A stretch of 64,000 nucleotides of DNA, from contig NZ_CP061368.1 of assembly GCF_014725735.1 (NCBI RefSeq), positions 3,673,225 through 3,737,224 on the forward strand, written 5' to 3'. Source of the stretch: Wenzhouxiangella sp. AB-CW3. GTDB taxonomy: Bacteria > Pseudomonadota > Gammaproteobacteria > Xanthomonadales > Wenzhouxiangellaceae. Below are positions 6,481-58,084 of this stretch, one piece after another. A program made the translations under genes and the position numbers. Numbering within the stretch: position 1 is the stretch's first letter; the number at the start of each line of letters is the position of its first letter. Under the pieces are notes generated by a model. It ran no database searches. It saw nothing but the letters and a program-made list of their open reading frames with translations, and was not told the DNA's origin.

Positions 6481-8109
6481 TCAGTTGCTCGGCTCGCGAA
6501 CAATGACCTTGCCCTTCATGTAGGGGTGGGGCGTGCAGATGTAGGTGTACTCGCCCGTCTCGCTGAAGGTGAAGCTGTCGGCTTCGGCATGTCCCAGCAT
6601 GCCGGTGGCAAACAGTTCCGGACCATCAATGGCCACGGCATTGTGAATGCCCGAGAACTCGCCGGCCATGTAGGTGAAGACGTCTTCATTGACCCAGGTC
6701 ACCTTGGTGCCCGGCTCGATCTCAATGACCTTCGGATAGTAGGAGTTGCCGATGATCTGCACGAACACTTCATCGACTTCCGGGCCATAGCTGACCGGGC
6801 GGTCCGGCTCGGCAGGCAGGCCATTGAGGCGCTCGGCCGGAGCAAACGGGGAGATCGCCCGCATGGCCGTTTCGCGGATCTCGTCAATCTCTTCCTCGGT
6901 GTATTCGGGGCCGTCGGCCAGAACGGTCTTGGGCGTGTCTGCATCGGCGTCGGCCACCAGCACCCCGATCGCGCCACGGGCCGTGGAACCGACCGCGTGC
7001 GAGAGCATCAGGTAGGCGCCTTCATCGGGCGGTACACGGAACTCAATCACCCAGGAGTCGGACGGTCCGGCAGTGACAGTCTGGCCACCCGGCATCCATG
7101 CTTCCGGATGCCCCTGCCAGTAAACGAAGTCCCAGATGATGCCCACCAGGTGGAAGGTCGAGACCAGGTTGGGGCCGATGTTGAGGAAGTTGACGCGCAC
7201 GTAGTCGCCGGGCTTGGCCACGATCGGCTCTTCGACGTAGCGGAACAACTTGCCATTGAAGGCGGTATAGATCGGGTTGCCTTCGATGGCGTCCTTGCCG
7301 CTGGCATAGAACTCGTGCTGGATCATGTAGAGTTCCAGGTCCGGACCATGGCCAAGCTTCTCCTCGAGCTTGTACTTGGTCTCCTTCGGTTCGACCACGA
7401 TCATGCCGTACTGACCGAACAGCACGTGCATCGGAATGGCATGGCCACCCGGCGCGCAGTGCCACATGTAGACGCCCGGCATGTTGGCGCGGAAGGTCAC
7501 GCTCTTCGACTGACCCGGGCCGATATCACCGATGTACTTGGAGGTCTGTGTATCGGCGGCATGGATGGAGGCACCGTGCGGAACCGTGCCGGTGTTTTCC
7601 ACCGTGATTCGCACGATATCGCCCTCGGTCACCTTCAGCGTCGGGCCGGGAATCTTGCCGTCGGAGAGAAAGCCGTCGTAGATGACGCCCTGACCGATGT
7701 AGGTCTCGCCCTCGTCCAGGCGAATGGTGAACTCCACATCCGGTTCGGCGTCCTGCGGCACGTAGCTGGTGGCGGGAATGTCGAGCCCTTCGTCGCGCTT
7801 GATGATCTCGATGAAATCGGCACCCTCGAAGATGGCATCGAGAACGACATCGCCGCCCCGGGCCGCGGCCACGGAACTGGCGGTGATCGCCTGGCTGGCC
7901 GAGCCCAGCGGCAGGCCTTCCTGGTTGGCCACGGCGGCCAGCAGGTCGCGCCCGACGGCCGTGTGGGCCCGTTCATTCTTGAGTTCGTGCATGAACGAGT
8001 CGTTGCACGACGGGCAGGCCTGCGCATCCGGTGAGAACACGGCCGCACTCAGGCCAACCGCCAGAGCGGCGGCCCCCAGAAGCGTGGTTGGTGTGTATCT
8101 ATTTAACAT
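6481..8109 (-). CDS. NirK-like multicopper protein with a C-terminal amicyanin-like cupredoxin domain
   Basis: A 542-residue exported protein with a signal peptide, then CPSC at 32-35. Residues about 120-390 form the two cupredoxin domains of copper nitrite reductase. Residues 440-542 are an extra cupredoxin with a complete type 1 site (H489, C525, H528, M531, motif CTPHPYM). In the NirK part, type 2 ligands are kept (H183, H217, H371), as are type 1 H178, C218 and H228. However, Q233 sits where the axial Met is expected, and the catalytic Asp and His of NirK (Asp98 and His255 in the usual numbering) align with S181 and I325. Alignment was by eye. It may be a divergent nitrite reductase or another two-domain copper oxidase. 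It lies 38 bp after a cytochrome c gene and behind a FNR-type box. Confidence 0.75.
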   Translation of the reverse strand: MLNRYTPTTLLGAAALAVGLSAAVFSPDAQACPSCNDSFMHELKNERAHTAVGRDLLAAVANQEGLPLGSASQAITASSVAAARGGDVVLDAIFEGADFIEIIKRDEGLDIPATSYVPQDAEPDVEFTIRLDEGETYIGQGVIYDGFLSDGKIPGPTLKVTEGDIVRITVENTGTVPHGASIHAADTQTSKYIGDIGPGQSKSVTFRANMPGVYMWHCAPGGHAIPMHVLFGQYGMIVVEPKETKYKLEEKLGHGPDLELYMIQHEFYASGKDAIEGNPIYTAFNGKLFRYVEEPIVAKPGDYVRVNFLNIGPNLVSTFHLVGIIWDFVYWQGHPEAWMPGGQTVTAGPSDSWVIEFRVPPDEGAYLMLSHAVGSTARGAIGVLVADADADTPKTVLADGPEYTEEEIDEIRETAMRAISPFAPAERLNGLPAEPDRPVSYGPEVDEVFVQIIGNSYYPKVIEIEPGTKVTWVNEDVFTYMAGEFSGIHNAVAIDGPELFATGMLGHAEADSFTFSETGEYTYICTPHPYMKGKVIVREPSN

Positions 8110-43891: not shown

Positions 43892-44755
43892 ATGAGTGCA
43901 CGCAAGCTGACCCGAATCATCGAGTCGATCGCGACCTCAGATGGCGCCGGGGTCAAGCTCCGGCGCAGCCTGGGCTCGAACCCGCATGCGCGGCTCGATC
44001 CGTTCCTGATGCTCGACGAGTTCTACTCCGACAACCCCGACGACTACATCGCCGGCTTCCCGCCGCATCCGCACCGCGGTTTCGAGACGGTGACCTACAT
44101 GCTCGACGGGCGCATGGAGCACAAGGACCATCTGGGCAACACCGGCGACCTGGGCCCGGGTTCGGTGCAGTGGATGACCGCCGGCCGCGGCGTGATCCAC
44201 TCGGAAATGCCGAAACAGAACGAGGGGCGCATGCGCGGCTTCCAGCTCTGGATCAACCTGCCGTCCAGCGAGAAGATGAAGCCGGCCGACTACCGCGACA
44301 TCCCGGCCTCCGATATTGCCAGGCTGGACTTCGAAGGCGGGTCGGCACGGGTCATTGCCGGCACGCTGCACCTCAACGACCAGTCGGCGACCGGGCCGGT
44401 CAACTCCGCAGACCAACCCTTGAGCACCGACCCCCTCTACGTCGACCTGCGCCTGGATGCCAACCGCGAGGTCGAGATCCCGGTGAGTGCCGGGCACAAC
44501 GTGTTCGTCTACCTCTACGACGGCGAGGCCAGCATCGGCGGACGCACCCTGCCGCATCGCTCCACCGGAGTGCTGAGCGATGGAGACCGGGTCGTGTTCC
44601 ATGCCGGCTCAGACGGCGCGGGCGCCCTGCTGCTGGCCGGCAAGCCGATCGGCGAGCCGGTGGCCCAGTACGGCCCGTTCGTGATGAATACGCGCGAGGA
44701 GATCGAGCAGGCGATTGCGGACTATCGGTCCGGGCGCTTGACGGGTGTGGCGTGA
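43892..44755 (+). CDS. Pirin-family protein
   Basis: A 287-residue double cupin. The N-terminal cupin shows the metal-binding HPHRGFETVTYMLDG and the downstream GVIHSEMP segments typical of pirins. Some members are quercetinases, others transcription cofactors. The pairing with azoR under a divergent LysR regulator suggests a quinone- or electrophile-stress unit, which is inference. A heptad array follows the stop. Confidence 0.88.
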   Translation: MSARKLTRIIESIATSDGAGVKLRRSLGSNPHARLDPFLMLDEFYSDNPDDYIAGFPPHPHRGFETVTYMLDGRMEHKDHLGNTGDLGPGSVQWMTAGRGVIHSEMPKQNEGRMRGFQLWINLPSSEKMKPADYRDIPASDIARLDFEGGSARVIAGTLHLNDQSATGPVNSADQPLSTDPLYVDLRLDANREVEIPVSAGHNVFVYLYDGEASIGGRTLPHRSTGVLSDGDRVVFHAGSDGAGALLLAGKPIGEPVAQYGPFVMNTREEIEQAIADYRSGRLTGVA

Positions 44756-45328: not shown

Positions 45329-45985
45329 TCAGATCCGGTTTCGTTCGAAGTGGCCGCGCAGCCTCTGAAATTGTTCGGCCATGCGTTGCGGTTCCAGTGG
45401 CGGTGACAACGCCCCGACCACGCGACCGCGTGGATCGACGATCATCACCGACGAGGTATGGTCGATGCTGCGATAGCCTGTCTCGTCGACATGCTCGGCA
45501 TACTTGATCGCCATGGGAGCAGCCAGGCGATCGATCTGCTCGAGTTCGCCGTGCAGCCCGATGAAGTCCTCGTGGTACCAGTCCAGGTATTCCTGCATTT
45601 CCGCGGGACTGTCATTGTCCGGGTCGAGCGAGACAAACAGTACCTGGAGGTTGTCAGCGGCTCCCTGTGCTTCGAGAAAATCATGCATGCCGCGCAATGC
45701 ATGGAGGCTCATCGGGCAGACATCGGGACAGGCCATGTAGCCGTAGAAGACAAAACTCCAGTACCCCTTGAACTGGTCGCGACCAAAGGGCCGTCCGTGC
45801 TGGGTATGAAGCTGGAACTCGGCCAGTGAACGCGGCTCCGGCCACATCACGGCCTGCACCTCGGGCGGCGCACTGCCCCAGGCAGTGCGCCCTGTCGGTT
45901 GCTGGCTGAGCCAGATTCCGGCCAGCAGCGAACCCGCCATGACCAGCAGCAGAAACGGAATCAGCAGCCGGCGGCGGGTGGTCAT
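45329..45985 (-). CDS. SCO1/SenC-type copper metallochaperone
   Basis: A 218-residue protein with an N-terminal membrane anchor (LLIPFLLLVMAGSLLAGIWL) and a thioredoxin-like domain with the copper site CPDVCP and a conserved His near the C-terminus (SIDHTSSVMIV). It probably delivers copper to a CuA site, such as the subunit II at 54459-55031. ATG 45985 is chosen because it gives a normal anchor. The longer frame to 46060 lies within the cytochrome gene. A second SCO gene is at 51039-51836. Confidence 0.9.
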   Translation of the reverse strand: MTTRRRLLIPFLLLVMAGSLLAGIWLSQQPTGRTAWGSAPPEVQAVMWPEPRSLAEFQLHTQHGRPFGRDQFKGYWSFVFYGYMACPDVCPMSLHALRGMHDFLEAQGAADNLQVLFVSLDPDNDSPAEMQEYLDWYHEDFIGLHGELEQIDRLAAPMAIKYAEHVDETGYRSIDHTSSVMIVDPRGRVVGALSPPLEPQRMAEQFQRLRGHFERNRI

Positions 45986-45992
45986 GACTGGC

Positions 45993-46343
45993 TCAATCGG
46001 CCAGGCTGCGGATGAAGGCAACGACGTTGTCGAGGTCGTCATCATCCAGGGTGTGACCAAATGCGGTCATCGTCGGTGCCAGACCGGCAGCCGGTCCACC
46101 CTTTTCGGTCACCAGGCGAATATGATCGTCGGTGGTTTCCTCCTGCCAGGCCGGGTCCGACATGTCAGGCGGTGCCGGACGCAAGGCACGGCCGGCCGGG
46201 CCGTCACCCTTGCCGGAATCACCGTGACAGGTGGCACAGAGTTGCTTGAACTTGGTCTCGCCGGCTTCGACATCGGCGGCGGAGACCGGCTGAACCGCCA
46301 CGGCCAGGGCGGCGACACACAGGGCATTGAAAATAAGGCGCAT
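45993..46343 (-). CDS. Small periplasmic c-type cytochrome
   Basis: A 116-residue monoheme cytochrome with a signal peptide (ALCVAALAVAVQPVSA), one CATCH motif and a probable axial Met in TMTAFGHTLDD. It closely resembles the cytochrome upstream of the NirK-like gene and likely arose from the same family. It leads an operon with SCO and ubiT. It could feed electrons to the CuA-type heme-copper enzyme encoded nearby. Confidence 0.9.
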   Translation of the reverse strand: MRLIFNALCVAALAVAVQPVSAADVEAGETKFKQLCATCHGDSGKGDGPAGRALRPAPPDMSDPAWQEETTDDHIRLVTEKGGPAAGLAPTMTAFGHTLDDDDLDNVVAFIRSLAD

Positions 46344-46486: not shown

Positions 46487-46654
46487 GGGAAGCTCTGAAG
46501 AACGTAGCGAGCGGGCGCCTGACGGTGGCCGCCGGAGCGCAGAAACCGCAGCGCCGGGTCGGAGCCGTCGCGCGTGTATATGTGAAATACATGAGGATTT
46601 TGAGCACCGCCGGACGCCGTCAGGCGCACGCGCAGTAGTTCTTCAGAGCTTCCC
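46487..46654. mobile_element. MITE-like element with 17-bp perfect terminal inverted repeats
   Basis: A 168-bp segment bounded by GGGAAGCTCTGAAGAAC (46487-46503) and its exact reverse complement (46638-46654). Complementarity extends inward to CGCCTGACGG on both sides (about 38 bp with mismatches). There is no transposase. The ends are IS5-like in style. I see no clear target duplication. ORFs read within it are not real genes. The region 46344-46486 next to it shows no gene and is presumably the promoter for the cytochrome. Confidence 0.8.
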
Positions 46655-47101
46655 GAGCCACCTTTCAAGGTGCTCGACATGCTCGGCTTCCTCTTCCGAG
46701 AACTCCTGGGCCAGTTCCTGGACACGTTCCGAGCGGGTTTCTCCGGCGATCATGGAATAGAAGTCGCAGGCACGGCGCTCGGTTTCCAGGGCAGTCTCGA
46801 TGGCCTTTTTCGGTGTGATACCGTCGAGTTCGGCGTGGGCCAGTGGATTCTCCGGGCTCCACCGGTCTGGCCAGGTGACATCGTCAAGATCGTCCTCGAA
46901 AACCTTGCCCAGTTCACGCTCCTGAATCTCGCGCACTTCCTTGTGGTGCAAGCGCGAGAACTCGCCGAACTTCGCGAACAGGGCGGTGACCTCCTCATCG
47001 CCGAGCTCGTCCATCTTCTGCGCCAGCTGGTCGTAGCCGGCGGCCGCGTCAGCCTCGAGCATGGCGGCACATCTCAAGAATCGTTCCAGGTCATGAATCA
47101 T
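46643..47101 (-). CDS. Rubrerythrin/ferritin-like protein with 3' end formed by the MITE
   Basis: A 152-residue four-helix protein with di-iron-type Glu/His patterns (LEADAAAGYDQLAQKM, EFSRLHHKEVREI, ALETERRACDFYSMI, EFSEEEAEHVEHLERWL). It is a paralogue of 32312-32830. The last codons GGG-AAG-CTC-TGA are exactly the outer end of the MITE, so the insertion supplied the stop and the terminal GKL. The parent gene may once have continued, since the paralogue extends about 18 residues further. Function is likely iron binding or peroxide protection. Confidence 0.82.
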   Translation of the reverse strand: MIHDLERFLRCAAMLEADAAAGYDQLAQKMDELGDEEVTALFAKFGEFSRLHHKEVREIQERELGKVFEDDLDDVTWPDRWSPENPLAHAELDGITPKKAIETALETERRACDFYSMIAGETRSERVQELAQEFSEEEAEHVEHLERWLGKL

Positions 47102-47546: not shown

Positions 47547-48926
47547 TCAGGTCGCGCCGGCCAGAACGGGACGGCGGCGGGTGAGCACGGCCTGGCCGTA
47601 GGCGACCAGGAACAGCACGCCGCCAATGATGGCGACAAGGCCGCCGATCCCCATGACGATCATGCCGCCAAGCTGGGCGATGGTCTCGAGCATCTGGTCG
47701 GCACCCGCGGTCTTGCGCTGAACGCCGTGACCGCCGGAAAACGCCAGCCCGATGACATGCAGAAACTGACCCGTCCCGTATATCCAGGGCAGGGCCAGCA
47801 TCATCTTCAGGCTGGCCGGCCGAAATCCGAATTTGGGCAGCAGGTAGAGCGCCAGCATCATGAAGGTCAGGGTGATGGCGACGATGCAGCCGTGGTAGTG
47901 GGCCGGCACCATGGTGTTGGAGTCGGTAATCAGAAAGCCCAGCGCGCCGCCAAAACCGAACAGGGCGATGGAAAAGACCAGCCCGGCGCGCAGCGCACTT
48001 TCGGTCATATTCTTCGCCCGGTCGCTCTTCCACCAGCCGATCAGCAACGCCAGCCCGATCGGTCCGGACGCCAGTCCGCCGCCGGCGGCCATCAGCCAGA
48101 CGAAAAAGGTGCGGTGGCCGGGACTGCCGACATCAAAGTACAGGTAGCCCCAGATGGCCAAAAAGGCCGGGATCACGCCCGCGAGCAGGAAGGCCATGAC
48201 CAGGCGCGGACTCAGGGGGATGCGGATGCCCGAGCTGGAGGCCAGCCACAGCCAGGCCACCAGCATGAACTGCACCCAGGCAAACTGAAGAATGTGGCCA
48301 CCGCCCCAGAACAGCACCTCGTAGTACTGCGGGCCGAACAGGTATTCGGGCATGGCCAGGAACGACCAGATCAGCGCACCGAACGACAGCACCAGCGCGA
48401 TCACCCCGGTGTGCACGCCAAAGCGCATCACGCCCTCCTCGGCCGGCTGGCCGGATGCGGCCAACGGGTTGACCATCGAACGCATGGCGCTGATCAGCAG
48501 GCCCAGACCAAAGATGGCCAGGCCACCGAGAAACAGGGCATTGTCGAGCACCGGTACGTAGTTGCTCATGATGGCCTGGCCTTGCTGGAACGGGGCGATG
48601 GCGATCAGAAGCGAACCGACCGCCATCACGACCAGCGAACCCCACCCGGTGATGGCCGCCACCGGCCGGCTGGCCAGCGTCCAAAGAATCGCGCTGAAGG
48701 CGCCGAACCACACCAGCACCGAGAAATCGACGTGGGCGACGATAGCCAGGTGGAAAAAGTTTTCATAGGGAAACAGCGTGGACACGCCCGGCGTGCGCGA
48801 GGCCACGATGAGGATGACGAACACGCCAGAGAGCAACAGCGCGATCACCGCCGCCTGCATCCAGGCATTGGCCAGGGGCTTGCGGAAGTCGTCGGGTACG
48901 GTCAGTTGCCAGGATTGCTGTTGCAT
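47547..48926 (-). CDS. Heme-copper oxidase subunit I-like protein with altered CuB site
   Basis: A 459-residue polytopic protein of about 12 helices in the cbb3/NOR-like style. Heme ligands are visible: H65 in helix II (AHVDFSVLVW) and H343/H345 in helix X (VPAHYHG). CuB-type ligands are incomplete. Helix VI has H211 (GGGHILQF) and no Tyr four residues later, while helix VII shows only GHRT (H271, R272) where a His pair is expected. It may be a NO-reductase-like family with a modified metal site or a redox-inactive partner. ATG 48926 follows an AAGGAG site. It is the last gene of the respiratory operon. Assignments are by eye. Confidence 0.75.
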   Translation of the reverse strand: MQQQSWQLTVPDDFRKPLANAWMQAAVIALLLSGVFVILIVASRTPGVSTLFPYENFFHLAIVAHVDFSVLVWFGAFSAILWTLASRPVAAITGWGSLVVMAVGSLLIAIAPFQQGQAIMSNYVPVLDNALFLGGLAIFGLGLLISAMRSMVNPLAASGQPAEEGVMRFGVHTGVIALVLSFGALIWSFLAMPEYLFGPQYYEVLFWGGGHILQFAWVQFMLVAWLWLASSSGIRIPLSPRLVMAFLLAGVIPAFLAIWGYLYFDVGSPGHRTFFVWLMAAGGGLASGPIGLALLIGWWKSDRAKNMTESALRAGLVFSIALFGFGGALGFLITDSNTMVPAHYHGCIVAITLTFMMLALYLLPKFGFRPASLKMMLALPWIYGTGQFLHVIGLAFSGGHGVQRKTAGADQMLETIAQLGGMIVMGIGGLVAIIGGVLFLVAYGQAVLTRRRPVLAGAT

Positions 48927-48955
48927 GATGTTCTCCTTGTACCAGGGCCTCATCG

Positions 48956-49462
48956 CTATTGCGGAAGACGCAGGGCGACGTCACCGTCGCCGATCTCCAG
49001 CAGGGCCGAGTGGCCCGGTTCCAGTGCCAGTTTGAATTGGCGCTGCATGTCATAGCCCTCCTCGCGCGGGCTGTCGCGCAGGGCCAGTTCCAGTTCGTAA
49101 TGTCCGGCCGGCAGCGGCTCGAATTCGAGCAGGTAGGCGCGTCCGTCTTCCTGCCATCCGGCGGCCTTGACGCGCCGGTCGATGATCAGCTCACCGTCCA
49201 GGCGCACCCGCACCAGGGTCGGAACGCGCCCGCGCGGGCAGACTTCGGTGACACGCCGCGTGGGCGGCAGATCGGTCTGTTCTTCCTCGGTCAGGGGGCG
49301 GCAGGGCTCGACGCGTTCGGCCAGGTGGGCCATGCTGATCTTCAGTTCGCCGTAGCCTTCAGGCACGGGCGAGAAGGCAGGGCCCATGGCGAAAGCGGCA
49401 ATCACGACCAGGAACAGGGTCCAGGCCGCCAACTGGCCGACATGACGTGCCAGGCGCCTCAT
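48956..49462 (-). CDS. Membrane-anchored unknown protein in the respiratory operon
   Basis: A 168-residue protein with one N-terminal hydrophobic helix (AAWTLFLVVIAAFAMGPAF) and a beta-rich periplasmic part containing two Cys (about 54 and 75), GHYELELALRD and LEPGHSALLEIGDG. No family is recognised. Its ATG overlaps the stop of the cytochrome b/ferredoxin fusion (ATGA) and it precedes the heme-copper-like gene by 29 bp, so it probably helps assemble or fold those proteins. Confidence 0.7.
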   Translation of the reverse strand: MRRLARHVGQLAAWTLFLVVIAAFAMGPAFSPVPEGYGELKISMAHLAERVEPCRPLTEEEQTDLPPTRRVTEVCPRGRVPTLVRVRLDGELIIDRRVKAAGWQEDGRAYLLEFEPLPAGHYELELALRDSPREEGYDMQRQFKLALEPGHSALLEIGDGDVALRLPQ

Positions 49463-51042
49463 TGCACTTCCTCGCGCCGGCCCGACTCCTGCGGGTCGGT
49501 TTGCTCTTCTTCGCCGGAAAGGTCGGCCAGGTGTTTACCGAATTCGGTCAGTTTCTGATCCAGCCGGGTTTCGTCACCTGTCTTCATCCATACCGTCAAA
49601 AGACGTTCGCGCGGCACCCGTTTGCGCAGGCCGGGCTGGCGTTCGCGTTCGATGCGCTGGCGGGTGAAATCATCGCCGAGGCGGTGGTGACAGTCGCAGC
49701 CCTCGCAGCCGGCAATCGCCACCCCGGAATAGCCCGTCGAACGCATGGCGTAGTCGATGCCCGCGGGCGGAATCATACCCACGCAGGGCAAGCTGACGGT
49801 ATGGGTCTTCGGACCGGCCACGCGTTCGACCCGCGGGCCGTGGTCGCAGCCGAACACCAGCACCGCTCCGCGCGCCTTGTCTGCCGCCACATCGATCTGC
49901 AGCCGGAAATCTTCCATGGTGAAGTGCGGCATCTCGATGCCGGTGGTCAGCGGTCGGCGCTGGCGAAACGGCGAGGAGGACGGGCAAGATCCCGTGCAGA
50001 TCCCGCAGGACACGCACAGGTCGGGATTGACCTTGGCCTCGAGTTTGAAATTGCGCTCGTCGCTGCGCTCGACCATGTCGATGGCGCCGTAGGGGCAGTC
50101 CTCGGCACAGAAACCGCAGCCGGTACAGTCGGGCAGGTGCACTTCGGCGACAGGCGGCTTCTTGGCCGGCGGCAGCCACGGCAGGGCGGCCAGCACCAGG
50201 GTGCCGCCACCGGCGACCAGCCACACGAAGCCCTCGGAGGTCAGAGACATCAGCGGGAAGATGGCCAGGTAGAACCAGTCGATGTCCAGCGACAGCGGGA
50301 CGCGGTCGAGATCGGCCGGCGGGTGGCTGTAGACCGGCACCAGCACCGACAGCACCAGTAGTGCGACCAGGCTGCCCAGCATCAGCTTGCGCGTCGGGTT
50401 GATGCGCGGGCGACGAACCCTGAGCAGGTGGAACCAGATCGCCAGCACCGCGATGATGGGCAGGCCGACCAAGTGGATAAAGGCGATCAGCGTGAACAGG
50501 CGACTGCTGACCGCCTCATTGCTGATGAAGTTGCGGCTCATCGGGTCGGTGAAGATCGGCAGCCAGTCCATCAGCCGCGCGCTACCCACGGCCACGTACT
50601 GGGCCAGCTCGTCCCACACCATCCAGTAGCCGGAAATGCCGAACCACAGCACGATCCAGATCAACGGCACACCGGTCAGCCAGGAGAACCAGCGTGGGCC
50701 CTTGTGGCGGCTGCGTATCATCTCGCGAACGATATGCAGACCCAGAGTGATCACCGCGGCGTCTGAAGCATAGCGGTGCAGGCTGCGCAGGATGCCGCCG
50801 GCATACCATTGCTCGTGCGTGAGATATTCCACCGATTCCCAGGCCCCTTCCAGGCTGGTGCGGTAGAAGATGAACAGGTAGATGCCGGTGACCAGGGCGA
50901 CGTAGAAAAAGAAGATGGTCAGCGCACCGAGGTGATGCATGGGATTGTGCACGCCGTCGAAGGCCCGCGACAACGGCATTTCCAGCCTTGCCAGGAGGCG
51001 CCTGGCCGATCCTGGCAGCGCGTGTGCTTGCGGGGTAGTCAT
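49459..51042 (-). CDS. Cytochrome b / 2x[4Fe-4S] ferredoxin / MvhD-like fusion protein
   Basis: A 527-residue multidomain protein. Residues 1-210 are a cytochrome b/b6-type four-helix bundle with two heme b pairs: H89/H103 (HX13H) and H190/H205 (HX14H). Three more hydrophobic helices (about 215-295) follow. Residues 303-355 have two [4Fe-4S] motifs: C306-C309-C312-C316 and C343-C346-C349-C353. Residues 390-500 look like an MvhD/hydrogenase iron-sulfur domain (VFGCDHG, LPCVGM, GCEGCDC). The order resembles QmoB/QmoC-type parts joined. It should move electrons between quinol and a soluble partner or the heme-copper subunits. Confidence 0.85.
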   Translation of the reverse strand: MTTPQAHALPGSARRLLARLEMPLSRAFDGVHNPMHHLGALTIFFFYVALVTGIYLFIFYRTSLEGAWESVEYLTHEQWYAGGILRSLHRYASDAAVITLGLHIVREMIRSRHKGPRWFSWLTGVPLIWIVLWFGISGYWMVWDELAQYVAVGSARLMDWLPIFTDPMSRNFISNEAVSSRLFTLIAFIHLVGLPIIAVLAIWFHLLRVRRPRINPTRKLMLGSLVALLVLSVLVPVYSHPPADLDRVPLSLDIDWFYLAIFPLMSLTSEGFVWLVAGGGTLVLAALPWLPPAKKPPVAEVHLPDCTGCGFCAEDCPYGAIDMVERSDERNFKLEAKVNPDLCVSCGICTGSCPSSSPFRQRRPLTTGIEMPHFTMEDFRLQIDVAADKARGAVLVFGCDHGPRVERVAGPKTHTVSLPCVGMIPPAGIDYAMRSTGYSGVAIAGCEGCDCHHRLGDDFTRQRIERERQPGLRKRVPRERLLTVWMKTGDETRLDQKLTEFGKHLADLSGEEEQTDPQESGRREEVQ

Positions 51043-51836
51043 ACCGTTCTCCGGCGACGGTAGTGGACAATCTCCACGCCCAGCCAGCCCAGCGCGAGCG
51101 CGAGAATGACGGTGCCAATGAAGATGCCCATGAACAGGGAATAATCGAAGTAGTAGCGGTCGCCGCGGGCGTCGTAGACGGTGCAGAACAGGCGCACGCG
51201 GTTGGCTACCCGGGTCAGCAGGCCGTCGTCGGGCGAGGGCCGACCCAGCACCAGATCTTTCATCGGCTCGACCAGCAAAGGCGTATCGAAGATCTCGCCG
51301 TAGACCTGGCGGTAGACACGGCCTTCCTGGTCGATGATGGTGACCTGCACGGTGTGATCGTAGCCGCGTGAGGACTCCTGGTAGATGAAGCCGACATCCT
51401 CCATGAGCTGTTCGAGTTCATCGGGATTGCGGCTGGCCATGAAGTGCCAGTTCGGGTCGCGCACGCCGTGCCGGCGGGCGTAGTGCTTCATGGCATCCGG
51501 GGTGTCGACCGGGTAGTCGAAGCCGATGGTGAGAAAGTTGAAGCTGGCATCGCCCAGGGCATTGCGCGCGATCTGGACGACGCGGTTGATGTGCTGCGTG
51601 CTGACGCTGCACGAATGCACGCAGGCGGTGTAGATCACCGAAATGACCAGCGGGGCGCCGTAGAAGTCGGCCAGTCGATGGGCCTCGCCGTTGGTATCGA
51701 TCAGTTCGATATCGCGCACTTCACGCCCCAGGGCGGCCTGGCTGACCTCGATGGCTTCGCGATTGATGTCGGCTTCGGCGGTTGCGGCAAGCAACAGCGC
51801 CAGGGCCGCCGCGATTGCGCGCGCCCAGGCGTTCAT
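51039..51836 (-). CDS. SCO1/SenC-type assembly protein
   Basis: A 265-residue protein with a signal peptide (AIAAALALLLAATAEA), a thioredoxin-like domain with copper-type site TACVHSCSV, and one C-terminal transmembrane helix (FMGIFIGTVILALALGWLGV). It differs from the SCO at 45329-45985 in this C-terminal anchor. It likely loads the CuA site of the adjacent subunit II. The ATG at 51836 overlaps the cyoE stop, and the longer frame to 52313 is a shadow of cyoE. Confidence 0.88.
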   Translation of the reverse strand: MNAWARAIAAALALLLAATAEADINREAIEVSQAALGREVRDIELIDTNGEAHRLADFYGAPLVISVIYTACVHSCSVSTQHINRVVQIARNALGDASFNFLTIGFDYPVDTPDAMKHYARRHGVRDPNWHFMASRNPDELEQLMEDVGFIYQESSRGYDHTVQVTIIDQEGRVYRQVYGEIFDTPLLVEPMKDLVLGRPSPDDGLLTRVANRVRLFCTVYDARGDRYYFDYSLFMGIFIGTVILALALGWLGVEIVHYRRRRTV

Positions 51837-52756
51837 CCCGGCACCATGAAGGCGGTGAAAAGGCCGGCCAGCAGCGCACCCAGTTGAATCAGCGAGGCCT
51901 TGAAGGCGGTCATGGCCTTGCCGCGCACCGGGTCGCGCACCATCTGCCAGGTGGTCCACAGCAGCCAGCCCGAACCGGCCAGTGCACCCAGCCACAGAAG
52001 CGGCGTGTTCACGACCACGGCCAGCGCCACAGTACTGGCAGCCAGCAGCAGCGTGTTGATCCAGTTCCAGCGCACGGCGGTTGTCACGCCCCGGGTGACC
52101 GGCAGCATCGGCACCTTGGCGCGACGGTAATCGTCGGCCAGGGCGATGGCCAGGCTCCAGAAATGCGATGGGGTCCAGAGAAACAGCACCAGGGCCAGCC
52201 ACAACACGGCGGTGGAACCGAATTCGCCGGTTGCCGCGGCGCCGGCCAGCACGGCCCAGCTGCCGGCGGCACCGCCTATGACGATATTGAGGTCGGTGCG
52301 CCGCTTCAGCCACATCGTGTAGACGATGGCGTAGGTCAGCGCGCCGGCGGCGGTGAACAGCCCCGCGGCCAGGTTGAAGTGCCAGGCGGCCAGGCCGGAA
52401 CCAGCCGCAATCATGGCGAAAAACAGCACCGGCCAGGCGGTTCTGGCGCTGATCAGGCCGTTGACGAAGGGACGGCCGCGGGTGCGGCCCATGACCGCGT
52501 CGATATCGCGGTCATAGTAGTGGTTGTAGGCGCCGGCCCCCGACGCGGCCAGCAGCACCGCCACCGACAGGATCAGCGTATCGAGCAGCGGTGGCCACTG
52601 GCCCGCGGCCAGCACCGCGCCGCCCAAGGCCGCCAGGGTGATGGCAAAGCCGATGCGCACCTTGAACAGCGCGGTGCACAGTGCGACCAGGGAGACTGCC
52701 GGCGGCGGAGCAACCGCCGGCAGGGCCTGGGTGGTGTCGAGGGGACGCCGGCTCAT
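51833..52756 (-). CDS. cyoE: Heme O synthase (protoheme IX farnesyltransferase)
   Basis: A 307-residue UbiA-family membrane protein. Active-site Asp motifs are YNHYYDRDIDAVMGRTRGRP (20 residues) and DDYRRAKVPMLP. It farnesylates heme b to heme O, the precursor of heme A made by CtaA encoded at 56204-57277. This implies that the heme-copper enzyme of the cluster carries heme O or A. It overlaps the subunit I gene by one base (TGATG). Confidence 0.93.
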   Translation of the reverse strand: MSRRPLDTTQALPAVAPPPAVSLVALCTALFKVRIGFAITLAALGGAVLAAGQWPPLLDTLILSVAVLLAASGAGAYNHYYDRDIDAVMGRTRGRPFVNGLISARTAWPVLFFAMIAAGSGLAAWHFNLAAGLFTAAGALTYAIVYTMWLKRRTDLNIVIGGAAGSWAVLAGAAATGEFGSTAVLWLALVLFLWTPSHFWSLAIALADDYRRAKVPMLPVTRGVTTAVRWNWINTLLLAASTVALAVVVNTPLLWLGALAGSGWLLWTTWQMVRDPVRGKAMTAFKASLIQLGALLAGLFTAFMVPG

Positions 52757-54462
52757 CAGCTGAACTTCCAGACCGAGGCCAGGTAGCCGTAGTTGATGAA
52801 GTAGTAGACGACGAACACCAGCAGCAGGAACATCGCCAGGATGAAGGTCCCCGGTGCCGGGAAGCCCTTGATGCCCAGACCGATGTTGCCATGGCCGGTC
52901 AGCGACTCGGCCGGACCGGTCAGGACCGCCGGCTTGCTGCTCGAGTACTCCGCCGCGCCCTTCTTCTTGCCGAACAGGATGGTGCCGACGATGACCAGTA
53001 CGAAGATGGCGCCGCCGGCCACGGCCATGATGGCGCTGACACCATTGAGGGCCATCATGGTGTAGGCCATGCCCGGGTAGGCCCATTCAAAGGCCGAACC
53101 GGCAAAGGCCATGTCCCAGTGGCGACGCGATACACCCAGCGTGCCCGCGCCCATCATGAAGAAGGCCTGCAACGCGGTACCGATACCGAACAGCCACGGC
53201 TGCCACATGGCCAGCTTCGGCCAGATCAGCTCGCGCCGGAACAGCACCGGCACCAGCCACAGCGACAGCGCCATGAACGCCAGCGTGGTACCCAGCGCCA
53301 CCGTGCCGTGGAAGTGACCGGGCACGTAGATGGTGTTGTGGATCAGGAAGTTGATCTGCTCGGCGCCCATGACCACGCCGGAGATGCCGCCGATAAAGCC
53401 GAAGCCGACCAGCGACAGGAACATGCCGGAGAACACCGGATTGCCCCAGGGTGCTTTCCTGAGCCACTCGAACAGGCCTTTGTCGTGACCCTTCTCGCGC
53501 TGGGCGACCTCGATGGCGCCGGGTACGGTCAGGCCGTGGACCAGGCTGGCGAGTACGGCCAGGTACATGGCATAGGAGGTATTGAAGATCTTCCATTCGG
53601 TCGACAGGCCCGGGTCACCGAGCAGGTGGTGGGCCGAGGCAATCGAAATGAACAGGATGTAGAGGAAGAACGCGCCGCGGCTGACCTTCTCCGACATCGG
53701 CTTGGCGCCAAAGACAATCGCGGCGATGGCGTACCACACGGCCACGTGGGCGGCGACGTTGATCTGCTGCGAGGAGTGGCCCATGCCCCACCAGATCAGG
53801 CGGTACATCAAGGCATCGATCTCGCTGATATAGCCAATCGACCACAGGAAAGTGGGGATCAGGATGATCGCGCCGCAGGCAATGGTGAACACGGCAATAA
53901 TTGCCGCGGTCAGCGCGCCGAAGGTCACCAGCGGAATGGAGCCCTCGTAGGTCTTCTCGTCTTTGGCAATGACCAGCGTACCGAAGAAGATGAAGGTACC
54001 GATCAGCGCCCCCACCGCGAACAATATCAATCCGAGGTAGAAGTGCGGTTCGGCCGGCATCGGCACATAGGAGGTAAACATCACGCTCGAGCCGCCCTGC
54101 AGAATGGCCACGGCGGTGATGGCCGCACCGACGGTCATCAGGCCGAAAGCGACCCAGCCCAGGCGCGGTGTGGCGATGCGACAGCGCAGCAGCACCGACG
54201 AGCAGAAATACAGCAGTGCCATTTCGAAAAACAGGATCCACACCAGCAGGGTGACGATCCCGTGGCCGGTCAGCACCGTGTAGAAGAGCTCGGCATCGAG
54301 CAGTTGCACGGCCGGCCAGCGCGTCAGCGCCACCAGCAGGCCAAGCAGGCCACCGACGGCCAGAAAGACGACCGCGGCGATGGCATTGGCCTTGATCAGG
54401 TTTTCGGCCGGGCGGTGCAAGACCAGGCCCGAGTCCGGACAGGTTCTGAATTCGGGTTTCAT
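52756..54462 (-). CDS. B-type-like heme-copper subunit I lacking the active-site tyrosine (predicted NO reductase)
   Basis: A 568-residue 13-helix protein related to ba3-type oxidase subunit I. All six His ligands are present: H67 (TGHGIV, low-spin heme), H229 (helix VI), H278/H279 (ASAHHLLG, helix VII), and H383/H385 (VPGHFHG, helix X). The Tyr expected at H229+4 is Gln233 (GHSSQQ), and helix VII has no Tyr at the cbb3-type position. Loss of this Tyr is typical of NO-reducing families (sNOR, eNOR and relatives) rather than oxygen reductases. The CuA subunit II overlaps it. Oxidase function cannot be excluded without biochemistry. Confidence 0.85.
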   Translation of the reverse strand: MKPEFRTCPDSGLVLHRPAENLIKANAIAAVVFLAVGGLLGLLVALTRWPAVQLLDAELFYTVLTGHGIVTLLVWILFFEMALLYFCSSVLLRCRIATPRLGWVAFGLMTVGAAITAVAILQGGSSVMFTSYVPMPAEPHFYLGLILFAVGALIGTFIFFGTLVIAKDEKTYEGSIPLVTFGALTAAIIAVFTIACGAIILIPTFLWSIGYISEIDALMYRLIWWGMGHSSQQINVAAHVAVWYAIAAIVFGAKPMSEKVSRGAFFLYILFISIASAHHLLGDPGLSTEWKIFNTSYAMYLAVLASLVHGLTVPGAIEVAQREKGHDKGLFEWLRKAPWGNPVFSGMFLSLVGFGFIGGISGVVMGAEQINFLIHNTIYVPGHFHGTVALGTTLAFMALSLWLVPVLFRRELIWPKLAMWQPWLFGIGTALQAFFMMGAGTLGVSRRHWDMAFAGSAFEWAYPGMAYTMMALNGVSAIMAVAGGAIFVLVIVGTILFGKKKGAAEYSSSKPAVLTGPAESLTGHGNIGLGIKGFPAPGTFILAMFLLLVFVVYYFINYGYLASVWKFS

Positions 54463-55031
54463 GACGACGGTTCTCCCTGGTTGCGACCGCTTTCAACGAC
54501 GTAGAGCTTGCTCAGCATGGCGTGGTGCATGATTCCGCAATACTCGTTGCACACCACAGCGTATTCGCCGGTTTCGGTGGGGGTGATCTGCAGCACCATC
54601 TCGTAGCCGGGCAGCACCTGGAAATTGATGTTGATCGGCTGAATCGACAGGCCGTGCTGCCAATCGGTGGAAGAGACATGCAGGCGATAGGTCTCGCCCT
54701 TCTCGAGCTCGAGAATTGGGTACCAGTCCCACAGGCGGCCAAGCAGATAAATGTCCGAGCCTGCCGGCGGCCTGACGACCGGGATCTGGCGGTCGGTCTC
54801 GTGGCGCACGGTGTGCTCGGCAACGAACTCGTTGACCTTCTCGGCGAAGCGCTCGGGCTGTACGCGGTAGGCCTCGCCGGAGTAGTTCTGATCGCCGTAG
54901 ACATGCCAGAAGGGCATGAAGAAGAACATGATCAGGCACCACACCAGGGCGATGCCGATCCAGACGATCTCGACCCGGTCGACGGGTTGTTTCCACCAGA
55001 TCTTTTTCGATGGGGGTTGCAATGCAGTCAT
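54459..55031 (-). CDS. CuA-containing subunit II of the heme-copper enzyme
   Basis: A 190-residue protein with one N-terminal transmembrane helix (VWIGIALVWCLIMFFFMPFW) and a cupredoxin domain. The full CuA site is visible: H126 (DWQHG), C161, E163, C165, H169 and M172 (in VVCNEYCGIMHHAM). It accepts electrons from a periplasmic cytochrome and passes them to subunit I. It overlaps subunit I by ATGA and follows a 63-residue membrane protein by 18 bp. Confidence 0.93.
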   Translation of the reverse strand: MTALQPPSKKIWWKQPVDRVEIVWIGIALVWCLIMFFFMPFWHVYGDQNYSGEAYRVQPERFAEKVNEFVAEHTVRHETDRQIPVVRPPAGSDIYLLGRLWDWYPILELEKGETYRLHVSSTDWQHGLSIQPININFQVLPGYEMVLQITPTETGEYAVVCNEYCGIMHHAMLSKLYVVESGRNQGEPSS

Positions 55032-55049
55032 GGTGATGGCTCCCTTGAA

Positions 55050-55241
55050 TCAGCGTCCGATGGGGATCGTGACGATTTCCATCACGCCCCAGATGATGTA
55101 GCTGACCGAAGGAACGGTGACGCCGAGAAACAGCAGCAAAAACGGGTTGTCGAGCATGCGCTGCATCATCGGGAGGCGTTCTTCGGACTCATCATCGGGT
55201 GCGTGTTCGTGGTCTTGCCGGTTCTGGTCTTGTTCGGTCAT
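55050..55241 (-). CDS. Small single-helix membrane subunit
   Basis: A 63-residue protein with an acidic, His-containing N-terminal tail (DQNRQDHEHAPDDESEERL) and one hydrophobic helix (FLLLFLGVTVPSVSYIIWG). Small subunits of this type (CcoQ- or CbaD-like) stabilise heme-copper oxidases. No sequence family is certain. It is the first gene of the respiratory operon. Confidence 0.72.
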   Translation of the reverse strand: MTEQDQNRQDHEHAPDDESEERLPMMQRMLDNPFLLLFLGVTVPSVSYIIWGVMEIVTIPIGR

Positions 55242-55352
55242 GGCGGACCCTCCTGCTATCGGGTTTCCGTACTTAACATGCGTGCAAGATGCATGTTTGT
55301 GGGTGCAATGGTGCGTGGTTGGCAGTCTAGCGCCGGGGGTTGGCGCTGGTCA

Positions 55353-55366
55353 TTGATGTAGATCAA
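55353..55366 (-). promoter_or_regulatory. Perfect FNR/DNR box upstream of the respiratory operon
   Basis: TTGATGTAGATCAA is a complete TTGAT-N4-ATCAA palindrome. It lies 112 bp before the first gene of the minus-strand operon. A TAGACT hexamer on that strand about 20 bp further gives a candidate -10. Confidence 0.82.
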
Positions 55367-55562: not shown

Positions 55563-56207
55563 ATGATTTCCATGCCTGCAAGATTGACCATTCCGACGGC
55601 TCTGGCCGTCACCCTTATCATCGCGGCCTGTGGCGGCGCGGACGATGCGCCGCCGGTTTCAGACTCCTGGTCGCGCATTGGACCGGACGGTGAGACACTG
55701 GCCGACAACGACCCGGACCACCACTGCATCTTCGACGAGCGCACCGGCCTGATGTGGGAGGTCAAGCGCGAGGATGCCGGGCTGCATCAGCCCGGCCAAC
55801 AGTATTCCTGGTACTTTGCCGATGAGCAGATCAACATGGGTGAACCGGGCGCCCGCGATGACGGCGATTGTGTAAACTCGCGCTGTGACACGGAAGGCTT
55901 TGCCAGCGCGGTCAACGAGGCCGGCTTGTGCGGCTTTCACGACTGGCGCGTGCCGACCCGCAATGAAATGATGACACTGGGCGACCGGCGTTTGATGGAC
56001 GAAACCGGCCTGATCGTCGACCCGGCCTGGCTTCCCCATGTCAAGGCCGGGGAATACTGGGCCAGTGAAACCTTCCGACTGTATCCGCAAAGCGCCTGGG
56101 CCGTGGACATGCGCCACGGACTGGATCGCGCCGATCACAAGAAGGAAGTCAAGGCGGTTCGCCTGGTGCGGCAGCACCGGACACCGGCGCAGGAGATTGA
56201 TGGATGA
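55563..56207 (+). CDS. DUF1566-type lipoprotein
   Basis: About 214 residues. A lipoprotein signal peptide ends in LIIAACGG (lipobox Cys at about residue 23). The rest has DUF1566-like features: DERTGLMWEVKR, HDWRVPTRNEM and YWASETF. These proteins often bind ligands at the cell envelope, but no activity is established. ATG 55563 is preferred because it has a GGGAGGG site and gives a normal signal length. Upstream ATGs at 55515 and 55533 are possible. It overlaps ctaA by ATGA. Confidence 0.8.
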   Translation: MISMPARLTIPTALAVTLIIAACGGADDAPPVSDSWSRIGPDGETLADNDPDHHCIFDERTGLMWEVKREDAGLHQPGQQYSWYFADEQINMGEPGARDDGDCVNSRCDTEGFASAVNEAGLCGFHDWRVPTRNEMMTLGDRRLMDETGLIVDPAWLPHVKAGEYWASETFRLYPQSAWAVDMRHGLDRADHKKEVKAVRLVRQHRTPAQEIDG

Positions 56208-57277
56208 ATTTTATTGAACGACGTAACGAGCGCATTCTCGGCCGCTGGCTGATGGCCTGCTGCCTGGTCCTCCTGATCCTGGTGATCGTGGGCGGAGCCA
56301 CCCGTCTGACCGGTTCGGGCCTGTCCATGGTCGAGTGGCAGCCGCTGACAGTGATTCCGCCCATGAACGAGGAGTCATGGATGGCGGAGTTCGACGCCTA
56401 CCGCGCCAGCCCGGAGTACCAGAAGATCAACTACGGCATGTCGCTGTCGGAATTCAAGGTGATTTACTGGTGGGAGTTCGGCCATCGCCTGCTGGCTCGC
56501 GGACTGGGCCTGGTCTTCGCCCTGCCGTTGCTATTTTTCTGGGTACGCGGCATGGTGCCCGTGCGGCTGCGCTGGCCTCTGCTCGGCCTACTGGCCCTGG
56601 GCGGCTTTCAGGGCTGGCTGGGCTGGTACATGGTGCAGAGCGGACTGGTCGACATCCCGCGCGTGAGCCCCTATCGCCTGGCCGCTCATCTGGGCGTGGC
56701 CCTGGTGATATTCGCGATCATGTTCCGGTTGGCGCTGAGCCTGCTCTGGCCGGGGCCCCGGAGACCGGCTCCTCGGCGCTGGCGGCCGTGGACCATCGCC
56801 TTGCTGGCCATGGTTTCGGTCACCATCATCTGGGGCGCTTTCGTGGCCGGCCTCAACGCCGGGCTGGTCTACAACACATTCCCGCTGATGGCCGGCCAGT
56901 GGATCCCGCATGGGATTCTGGGGCTGGAGCCGACCTGGCGGAACCTGTTTGAAAACACGGCCACCGTGCAATTCATTCATCGCGTACTGGCCGTGGTCAC
57001 TTTTGTCATCGCCCTGGTCGCCTGGCTGCGGGTCTGGAAGAGAGAACCCGATGCCCGTATCCGGTGGACCTTTCACGCTCTGTTTGCGGTGGTGGCCATA
57101 CAGGTGGGCCTGGGAATCGCCACCCTGCTGACGTATGTCCCGGTCACTCTGGGCACGATTCATCAGGGTGTGGCGGTGCTGGTGCTGGCGGCAGTCATCG
57201 GGGCCGACTACCTGGCCGACCGCGACCCGTCGGGTGAGCGCCAGACCGCGCACGAGACCCGTCTGACCACGGCCTGA
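56204..57277 (+). CDS. ctaA: Heme A synthase (CtaA/COX15)
   Basis: A 357-residue eight-helix membrane protein. Conserved His-bearing segments are visible: GGATRLTGSGLSMVEWQPLT (first 20 residues), YWWEFGHRLLARGLG, YRLAAHLGVAL, VQFIHRVLA and TIHQGVAVL. It oxidises heme O to heme A. Heme A is used by A-type and some B-type heme-copper enzymes, so its place beside the cluster suggests heme A in that enzyme. The gene may also serve an aa3 oxidase elsewhere in the genome. Confidence 0.93.
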   Translation: MNFIERRNERILGRWLMACCLVLLILVIVGGATRLTGSGLSMVEWQPLTVIPPMNEESWMAEFDAYRASPEYQKINYGMSLSEFKVIYWWEFGHRLLARGLGLVFALPLLFFWVRGMVPVRLRWPLLGLLALGGFQGWLGWYMVQSGLVDIPRVSPYRLAAHLGVALVIFAIMFRLALSLLWPGPRRPAPRRWRPWTIALLAMVSVTIIWGAFVAGLNAGLVYNTFPLMAGQWIPHGILGLEPTWRNLFENTATVQFIHRVLAVVTFVIALVAWLRVWKREPDARIRWTFHALFAVVAIQVGLGIATLLTYVPVTLGTIHQGVAVLVLAAVIGADYLADRDPSGERQTAHETRLTTA

Positions 57278-57285
57278 GACGAGAT

Positions 57286-57990
57286 CTATGCCCGGGGCTG
57301 GGACGAGCCCCGGGCAATCTGCTGAAGCTCCTCGGGCGCCCGCACGGTAATGCGGCGGGCCTGCATGTCGATCACCCCGTTGTTCTGCAGAATAGCCAGG
57401 CTGCGCGAAAGGGTTTCTGGCTGAATGGCGAGCAATCCGGCAATATGCTTCTTGCTCGCTTCCAGCCGGAACGGACCCCGCGATTCCTGCTGGCGATAGA
57501 CGTCAAGCAGGTAGTGAGCGACACGCAAATGGGCGTTCTGCAATGCCAGCGATTCGATCTGGTTGATCTTTTCCTGAATCCGGCAACTGAGCGTGCCGAG
57601 CAGACGAAAGCACGCATCCGGGGACTCCCTGAGCGTGGCCACCAGCGCGTCGGCATCGAATCCGACCAGTTCGCTGGGCTTGAGTGCCGCACAGTTGACC
57701 GGGTAACGGCGCTCGGGCAGAAACATCGTGGCCTCGGCGAAACTTCTCCCGGGCTGAATGATGGCCACGATCTTCTCATGGCCGTCACTGGACAGGCGAA
57801 ACAGCTTGAGTTGTCCCGAACGGCACAGCCAGATGCGCCGGGCCGGCTCTCCTTGCCGGAAAAGTTGCTCGCCGCGCTCGACTTGAACAATGCGGGAGTG
57901 CGCCAGCGCCTCTTCTCTCTGCTCGGCTTCGAGCGCGTTGAGCAGAGGAAATACCCTGAGATCGTCGGTTGTAGCCTGGGAGCCAGTCAT
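57286..57990 (-). CDS. CRP/FNR-family regulator, DNR-like
   Basis: A 234-residue regulator. The recognition helix HIAGLLAIQPETLSRSLAIL is nearly that of P. aeruginosa DNR (IAGHLSIQPETFSR), which responds to NO. The N-terminal FNR iron-sulfur Cys cluster is absent. The E-x-x-S-R motif predicts TTGAT-type sites such as those found in this window. ATG 57990 is chosen because it starts the conserved region. A TTGAC-N4-ATCAA site lies 80 bp upstream, suggesting autoregulation or cross-control by the FixK-like protein. Confidence 0.85.
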   Translation of the reverse strand: MTGSQATTDDLRVFPLLNALEAEQREEALAHSRIVQVERGEQLFRQGEPARRIWLCRSGQLKLFRLSSDGHEKIVAIIQPGRSFAEATMFLPERRYPVNCAALKPSELVGFDADALVATLRESPDACFRLLGTLSCRIQEKINQIESLALQNAHLRVAHYLLDVYRQQESRGPFRLEASKKHIAGLLAIQPETLSRSLAILQNNGVIDMQARRITVRAPEELQQIARGSSQPRA

Positions 57991-58070
57991 TGTCACGATG
58001 TGTCCCGGACACCAGCCAGGCTGGCCTTTGAATACGGCTACCATTTAACAGGCAAACTACCTGCATGGTT

Positions 58071-58084
58071 TTGACAAGGATCAA
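58071..58084 (-). promoter_or_regulatory. FNR/DNR-type binding site upstream of the DNR-like gene
   Basis: TTGACAAGGATCAA fits TTGAY-N4-ATCAA and lies about 80 bp before the regulator start. AT-rich TTAAAT follows on the minus strand as a candidate -10. Confidence 0.75.

Follow-up and report, generated by a model that had tools for sequence, protein, structure and literature searches.

An eNOR operon with a cytochrome b/ferredoxin/MvhD fusion and a CuB-less paralogue as the probable nitric oxide reductase of Wenzhouxiangella sp. AB-CW3

Heme-copper nitric oxide (NO) reductases (NORs) differ in an active-site residue—Gln in eNOR, Asn in sNOR and Glu in cNOR and qNOR, as given in Table A4 of PMC8756737. 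According to PMC11388526, eNOR has been characterized biochemically, and members of the family are reported from Chloroflexi, Zetaproteobacteria and Gallionellaceae (PMC8756737, PMC8114936, PMC10734462). Wenzhouxiangella sp. AB-CW3, a salt- and soda-lake bacterium reported to denitrify completely, grows anoxically on nitrate without accumulating nitrite and reduces nitrite to nitrous oxide (N2O), though slowly; its authors found no close match to known NORs among its genes and left two heme-copper enzymes unassigned (PMC7691419). Here, we analyzed a 64-kb stretch of this genome (hereafter, the window), in which positions 47547-55366 hold eight minus-strand genes packed tightly behind one perfect FNR/DNR box. 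The genes encode a small one-helix protein, a CuA-bearing subunit II and a subunit I of the heme-copper type, the factors CyoE and SCO, a cytochrome b/[4Fe-4S]/MvhD fusion (termed CYBFD), an anchored protein (UNK) and a second heme-copper protein (HCO2). We consider it highly probable that this operon specifies the respiratory NO reductase of AB-CW3—an eNOR accompanied by a CYBFD-UNK module and by HCO2—with NO reduction attributable to the eNOR core on account of its family, its residues and the pathway context.

Judged by its sequence, the subunit I/II core is an eNOR, an assignment that follows from the active-site Gln. Residues were counted over rows covering at least 85% of the respective profile (75 for subunit I and 77 for HCO2), with exact copies dropped and near-copies retained; the window sequence stands twice in the HCO2 set, once in trimmed form. 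As the initial annotation had noticed, subunit I lacks the cross-linked Tyr of oxidases, and every one of the 75 aligned rows has Gln at that position. Equally invariant (75/75) are the three CuB ligands, i.e., the helix VI His and the helix VII His pair, and the first helix X His. Two more His are each found in 74 rows: that of helix II, where one row has a gap, and the second of helix X, which is Lys in the Thermus row. This plasmid-borne Thermus eNOR (locus L036:9992-11674) reads HFK in place of HFH. B-type controls from Haloarcula, Deinococcus and Geobacillus plasmids, as well as the two A-type oxidases of the AB-CW3 genome, carry a Tyr four residues past the helix VI CuB His. In a tree of 56 rows—a random 24 of 76 HCO2 and 20 of 74 subunit I sequences, plus named ones—the Gln-type subunit I rows, including those of Thermus and Thermomicrobium, formed a group with support of 97/94, separate from the B-type controls. 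A cNOR- or qNOR-like core was ruled out, because subunit I reads GHSSQQ instead of HLWVEG and has no FeB Glu motif HxxVEG; moreover, a CuA subunit II with the motif CxxxCxxxHxxM replaces the heme c protein NorC, or its fused form, expected of those enzymes. An sNOR was rejected with the residue being Gln rather than Asn, and a ba3 B-type O2 reductase with the cross-linked Tyr being absent. The earlier proposal of an unusual NO-reducing complex, neither oxidase nor cNOR/qNOR, is supported as regards function, given the active-site Gln and a genome with nirS and nosZ and no norB match; it is not supported as regards novelty of the core, which is not unusual in kind because eNOR is a known NOR family.

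The remaining steps of the pathway are encoded elsewhere in the genome. The nirS gene specifies a cd1 nitrite reductase of 548 amino acids and adjoins a gene for a NapC/NirT-type protein, while nosZ is Tat-type, matches TIGR04244 above the cut-off and has nosR-like, nosD and ABC-transporter genes as neighbors. A NorB query of the whole genome, in a search that left flavodiiron proteins and HCP aside, returned a best E-value of 0.002, on a CcoN-like frame; this miss is meaningful, since 62 of 151 relatives yield NorB-like genes to the same query at E ≤ 1e-15. "NorB-like" denotes a match to one NorB at that threshold, taken without individual inspection; identities extend from 66%, in matches that are cNOR-like, down to 26%, in frames that are qNOR-like in length (~770 residues). 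The genome encodes other heme-copper proteins, i.e., two A-type ones (one fused to a subunit III-like part) and one CcoN-like, and because of them the equation of the two unassigned enzymes in the published description with subunit I and HCO2 is likely but not certain.

Across the order, 23 of 151 genomes carry eNOR subunit I or CYBFD. A strong cd1 hit occurs in 20 of these 23 versus 42 of the 128 others (p = 1e-6), and a NorB-like gene is absent from 14 of the 20 cd1 carriers with the cluster versus four of the 42 without it (p = 2e-6)—p-values that shared ancestry and the incompleteness of metagenome-assembled genomes render too good. The cd1 set (62 genomes) was hand-picked from a score list, and its counts take in a variant of ~710 amino acids whose function is putative only. 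Such frames are frequent among the cd1 hits of the order; the cd1-type proteins of this length at L167:7544-9682 and L169:9097-11211 have two heme c (CxxCH) motifs and adjoin large genes that, by eye, resemble those for TonB receptors. Separately, a multicopper protein at positions 6940-7743 of the window scored 127.7 bits against a NirK cut-off of 296.3 and was not counted as NirK.

To place the operon among its relatives, we compared the best 80 of 555 relatives recovered with CYBFD at E ≤ 1e-3, which by record title comprise Gammaproteobacteria, Alphaproteobacteria, Magnetococcales and others. The comparison of gene neighborhoods, suggested along with the initial annotation, revealed an operon order conserved outside the genus and recurring across the order, down to 40-45% CYBFD identity. 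Among the 80 loci, many of which end at contig ends, UNK was present in 79, SCO in 74, subunit I in 65, subunit II in 57, the small protein in 56, a hemerythrin-like gene in 49 (two members confirmed by Pfam), CyoE in 38, HCO2 in 32 and CtaA in 19. Where at least 4.5 kb of upstream sequence was available, eNOR was found in 52 of 55 loci, the three exceptions being Magnetococcales; where at least 2.2 kb lay downstream of UNK, HCO2 was found in 27 of 61 and a hemerythrin-like gene in 37 of 61, with both in 14 and neither in 11. Within the order, eNOR occurs in 20 of 21 CYBFD genomes (a set hand-picked from a score list), and the 21st has a contig cut within subunit I. In a sample of the phylum, with the window genome excluded, eNOR was detected in 28 of 33 CYBFD genomes versus one of 25 genomes with HCO2 only—a genome-wide co-occurrence that ties CYBFD to eNOR even across different contigs. 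This link is shown; that the fusion feeds the reductase from quinol and/or cytochrome c, as put forward in the initial annotation, is a possibility only. The set also occurs, together with a hemerythrin gene and without HCO2, on a named Defluviimonas plasmid. Plasmid cargo as a rule was rejected: HCO2 had no plasmid match, CYBFD matched 16 plasmid records of which only one spans the greater part of it, and UNK matched that record alone.

The CYBFD alignment comprised the window sequence and 16 of 23 located places, fragments and near-copies being omitted. The heme pairs H89/H103 and H190/H205—two bis-His hemes, as in the cytochrome b of bc type—were invariant in 17 of 17 rows, and so were eight Fe-S cysteines and the four MvhD cysteines (C399, C420, C446 and C451); the FlpD/MvhD profile scored 47.1 bits (cut-off, 22.3). 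The Rieske protein that a bc complex would have is absent from the operon's proteins. Hydropathy, read by eye, predicts six helices with a cytoplasmic Fe-S/MvhD part. The structural model of UNK consists of one helix and a beta-sandwich (predicted local distance difference test, pLDDT, 94.5), and residues H46, C54 and C75 are invariant (20 and 19 aligned rows). A fold search of solved structures with UNK gave no match at E ≤ 0.001; CopC, a copper protein, appeared at E 0.13-0.16 only and was not used. In eight of the 80 loci, UNK is fused in frame with CYBFD, which supports a physical pair of the two proteins, with MvhD predicted inside and UNK outside. In Thioalkalivibrio denitrificans (L093), two CYBFD copies flank UNK.

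In several lineages (L053, L054, L055, L056, L057, L128, L135 and L201), the eNOR operon contains, beside HCO2 or UNK, a second cytochrome b, a paralogue of that in CYBFD, which continues into [2Fe-2S], FAD and NAD(P) domains as a fusion (Pfam domains for the L055 copy). This fusion gives only a hint that electrons flow from cytoplasmic carriers to the membrane, and we infer the direction of electron flow through CYBFD, as well as the job of HCO2, only weakly. A role of UNK or HCO2 in defense was rejected, as neither had a PADLOC match.

HCO2 retains much of a heme-copper subunit I. The helix II His, the helix VI His, the Gln that follows it, both helix X His and an Arg are present in 77 of 77 rows, a Glu in 72 and the helix XI His in 74. 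Of the three CuB ligands, the helix VI His is retained and the helix VII pair is absent in all 77 rows, its first His being replaced throughout and its second position occupied by His in 21; one row has HHH ~10 residues beyond the place of the pair. An initial HCO2 alignment used 21 sequences. The HCO2 model adopts a heme-copper subunit I fold (pLDDT 86.2) with oxidases as the best matches in the PDB, a database in which a sequence search with HCO2 gave chance hits only. In the tree, HCO2 is a single clade (100/100) joined to eNOR as its sister with support of 94/95 on a branch of 2.88—slightly below the program's mark, and with a program warning of long branches meeting. In the phylum sample, 33 of the 34 genomes with CYBFD also have HCO2, which occurs in 25 further genomes without CYBFD; within the order, one CYBFD genome is without HCO2, and two genomes have it but neither eNOR nor CYBFD. 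At two loci without eNOR or CYBFD, it adjoins a DUF3617 gene (L081) and a hemerythrin gene (L082), as assigned by Pfam. CtaA lies within ~2 kb of HCO2 in 11 of 34 genomes read (10 of 20 longer stretches and six of 29 short ones, five genomes being shared). With the CuB pair absent, an ordinary heme-copper NOR was rejected for HCO2, and the second heme-copper protein of the initial annotation is not a second enzyme of the usual sort. We lean towards HCO2 being a CuB-less eNOR paralogue suited to heme handling or NO binding rather than turnover, because of the missing pair, its occurrence without CYBFD and the nearby CtaA.

The layout and control of the operon were also explored (Table 1). Reading frames confirmed the eight near-contiguous minus-strand genes of the initial annotation, with overlaps of 1-4 bases between adjacent genes and gaps of 2 and 18 bases otherwise, and the family calls for the CuA subunit II, subunit I, CyoE, SCO and the cytochrome b fusion were all matched above curated cut-offs. 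The perfect FNR/DNR box that had been proposed ahead of the genes, TTGATGTAGATCAA, proved to be the only perfect match to TTGATNNNNATCAA in the window. Boxes with at most one mismatch number six in the window, versus a shuffle mean of 0.83 and a shuffle maximum of 3. Such a box lies 5' of homologous operons in 25 of the 52 loci (out of 80) having sufficient upstream sequence, and is perfect in five; it exceeds chance, since random, mostly coding pieces of the same loci carry one in 4.3% of cases (0.7% for a perfect box). The operon is thus probably under FNR/DNR-type control. The nearby regulator lacks the FNR-type N-terminal cysteine cluster, as read from its Cys positions, and a one-mismatch box lies upstream of its gene at 58071-58084; we take this protein to be similar to Dnr. 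A scan for sigma-70-like promoters was uninformative (0 sites versus 2.7 expected), and none of 15 terminator-like sites (8.2 expected) clearly ends the operon. The 63-residue protein presumably resembles the small helix subunit of B-type oxidases, and the hydrophobic C-terminal stretch of the operon's SCO protein is read as a putative membrane anchor. Within the genus, the genes for the rubrerythrin-like protein, the cytochrome c and the second SCO protein come after the operon, beyond a gap of ~450 bases, and CtaA is close to the operon in relatives as well. Next past the downstream SCO gene, at 43892-44755, is a gene for a pirin-family protein.

Table 1. Features of the eNOR operon of AB-CW3 and its surroundings, in window coordinates.
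Feature	Position	Strand	Basis or remark
FNR/DNR-type box TTGATGTAGATCAA	55353..55366		~110 bases 5' of first gene
Small one-helix protein, 63 aa	55050..55241	-	Pfam: no match
eNOR subunit II, CuA site CNEYCGIMHHAM	54459..55031	-	Pfam COX2 22.6 bits (cut-off 22)
eNOR subunit I, GHSSQQ	52756..54462	-	Pfam COX1 217 bits, residues, tree
CyoE/CtaB heme O synthase	51833..52756	-	TIGR01473 224.3 bits (cut-off 210.3); start set by frame
SCO/SenC copper chaperone, CVHSC (CxxxC)	51039..51836	-	Pfam SCO1-SenC
CYBFD, cytochrome b/2x[4Fe-4S]/MvhD(FlpD) fusion	49459..51042	-	Pfam Cytochrome_B, Fer4_7, FlpD above cut-off
UNK, anchored protein	48956..49462	-	Pfam, NCBIfam: no match
HCO2, heme-copper paralogue	47547..48953	-	COX1 27.1 bits, under cut-off 34.8
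Rubrerythrin/ferritin-like protein	46643..47101	-	Pfam Rubrerythrin 28.9 bits; downstream, conserved in genus and family
Small cytochrome c, CATCH	45993..46343	-	Pfam Cytochrom_C; synteny
Second SCO protein	45329..45985	-	Pfam SCO1-SenC
CtaA/COX15 heme A synthase, divergent neighbor	56204..57277	+	Pfam COX15-CtaA 364 bits
Crp/FNR-family regulator	57286..58044	-	Pfam cNMP_binding, HTH_Crp_2; neighbors operon in family

We propose that NO made by NirS would be reduced by an eNOR consisting of the CuA subunit II, the Gln-type subunit I and the one-helix subunit, and that the resulting N2O would be used by NosZ. Electrons would pass from a periplasmic cytochrome c—probably the donor to CuA, and possibly the small cytochrome listed in Table 1—via CuA and the low-spin heme to the heme/CuB site, while the heme factors CyoE and neighboring CtaA and the copper factor SCO would serve the eNOR. 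CYBFD-UNK may be a membrane module dedicated to electron transfer in this eNOR branch, with the two hemes of cytochrome b joining the cytoplasmic MvhD domain and two [4Fe-4S] clusters to either the quinone pool or the periplasmic side; HCO2 would probably aid heme handling or NO binding, with no turnover of the eNOR kind. A bolder version, which we regard as speculative and rather doubtful, makes the eNOR of this branch a larger respiratory complex that electrons can enter in two ways, one through cytochrome c and CuA and the other through a cytoplasmic low-potential carrier and MvhD, with HCO2 as an NO-binding or heme-delivering partner. If that were true, electrons from the carrier would enter at MvhD, cross the two [4Fe-4S] clusters and then the hemes of the cytochrome b part, and arrive at UNK and the reductase, and NO reduction could be driven without the bc1 complex.

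A number of observations weigh against the operon being the respiratory NO reductase, including the limits given above for the p-values, the cd1 counts and the NorB search. AB-CW3 grows slowly with nitrate and not at all with nitrite, and the reduction of nitrite and NO is described by its authors as lacking or less effective (PMC7691419), so that NO may be reduced only weakly, or chiefly for protection. The eNOR reference rows in the tree were selected by residue, and the characterized Rhodothermus enzyme lies outside the tree. Mutual exclusivity with NorB is not significant when all genomes of the order are considered, NorB-like genes occurring in six of 23 cluster genomes versus 56 of 128 others (p = 0.17). 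Finally, three Magnetococcales loci (L104, L154 and L161) have CYBFD-UNK without eNOR in the stretch examined, and five of the 33 CYBFD genomes in the phylum sample show no eNOR (listed completeness, 69-96%). A cluster devoted to NO detoxification instead of respiration would accommodate the lack of growth on nitrite (PMC7691419, available part), along with the hemerythrin-like genes in 49 of 80 loci and the rubrerythrin-like gene here; the CuA design, the nirS/nosZ context and the anoxic nitrate growth without nitrite accumulation described in the same source speak for respiration, and we grant detoxification a minor, though real, chance. A high-affinity O2 reductase, ba3-like with an altered active site and induced at low oxygen, would in turn fit the B-type ancestry of the core and an oxidase-like operon with CyoE, SCO and adjacent CtaA, and an oxidase role has been argued for the related sNOR in the accessible text of PMC6967387. 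Nevertheless, the catalytic Tyr is Gln in all 75 rows, nirS and nosZ occur without a norB match and the genome is already supplied with oxidases, two of A-type and one CcoN-like, making this function very improbable.

The accessory proteins admit other roles, too. CYBFD-UNK could supply reductant across the membrane for CuA/CuB assembly, keeping SCO and the two Cys of UNK reduced; SCO, found in 74 of 80 loci and mostly immediately before CYBFD, would fit, as would the invariant His and two Cys of UNK and its fusion with CYBFD in some loci. Against this idea, which strikes us as unlikely, a structural disulfide might equally account for the two Cys, CYBFD and UNK are dispensed with in the eNOR loci of Thermus and Thermomicrobium, and two b hemes with three Fe-S clusters would be costly for thiol reduction. 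Similarly, HCO2 might itself catalyze the reduction of NO or O2, using a second metal site of another kind, in keeping with its fold and with the retained heme ligands, helix VI His, Gln and Arg (77/77), Glu (72) and helix XI His (74). The loss of the CuB His pair in every row and the 25 phylum-sample genomes without CYBFD argue otherwise, and the proximity of CtaA in 11 of 34 genomes suits heme handling as well, so that a catalytic HCO2 appears more unlikely still.

With the operon read as a respiratory eNOR, the likely missing NO step can be named for an organism reported to denitrify completely. Gene surveys based on norB miss such organisms, as illustrated by the 14 of 20 genomes of the order that combine cd1 and the cluster without a NorB-like match. 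The analysis also defines two protein families for which no described function was found, i.e., CYBFD along with the anchored protein that partners it, a pair tied to eNOR, and the CuB-less eNOR paralogue. The eNOR enzyme family is already known, and it is the accompanying CYBFD-UNK and HCO2 that look new; no description of the CYBFD-UNK partnership, the eNOR-linked operon or HCO2 was found in the open-access papers searched, a set without the primary eNOR paper, which makes the novelty of the eNOR neighborhood provisional. If the fusion feeds eNOR, electrons would enter NO respiration by a route that differs from those of cNOR and qNOR.

Among described systems, the eNORs of Thermus and Thermomicrobium come closest to the operon core, with 44-46% identity and with Gln for Tyr, three CuB His and a CuA subunit II in common. 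The Thermomicrobium eNOR genes are likewise preceded by a small helix protein, and the Thermus plasmid copy lies ~3 kb from nirS; unlike the present operon, neither of these loci (21 kb each) showed CYBFD, UNK or HCO2. The sNOR of Nitrosomonas (norSY-senC) resembles the AB-CW3 operon in joining a B-family core with a SenC gene, but has an active-site Asn where Gln is found here (PMC8756737), and the available text mentions no cytochrome b fusion for it. For the accessory module, the parallels are more partial. A cytochrome b with [2Fe-2S]/FAD/NAD domains, as in Accumulibacter, stands outside the operon studied here, and a CYBFD search of the AB-CW3 genome showed no such copy. Positions 570-775 of HdrA2, its ferredoxin-MvhD end, match CYBFD 297-512 with 68.9 bits, under the family cut-off; in contrast to HdrA2, CYBFD has a membrane cytochrome b and no HdrA flavin part. 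ExtP and ExtQ, from selenite/tellurite operons, correspond to CYBFD 35-214 (114.9 bits) and 222-295 (26.2 bits), respectively, both below cut-off, whereas CYBFD additionally bears the Fe-S/MvhD tail and resides in an eNOR operon.

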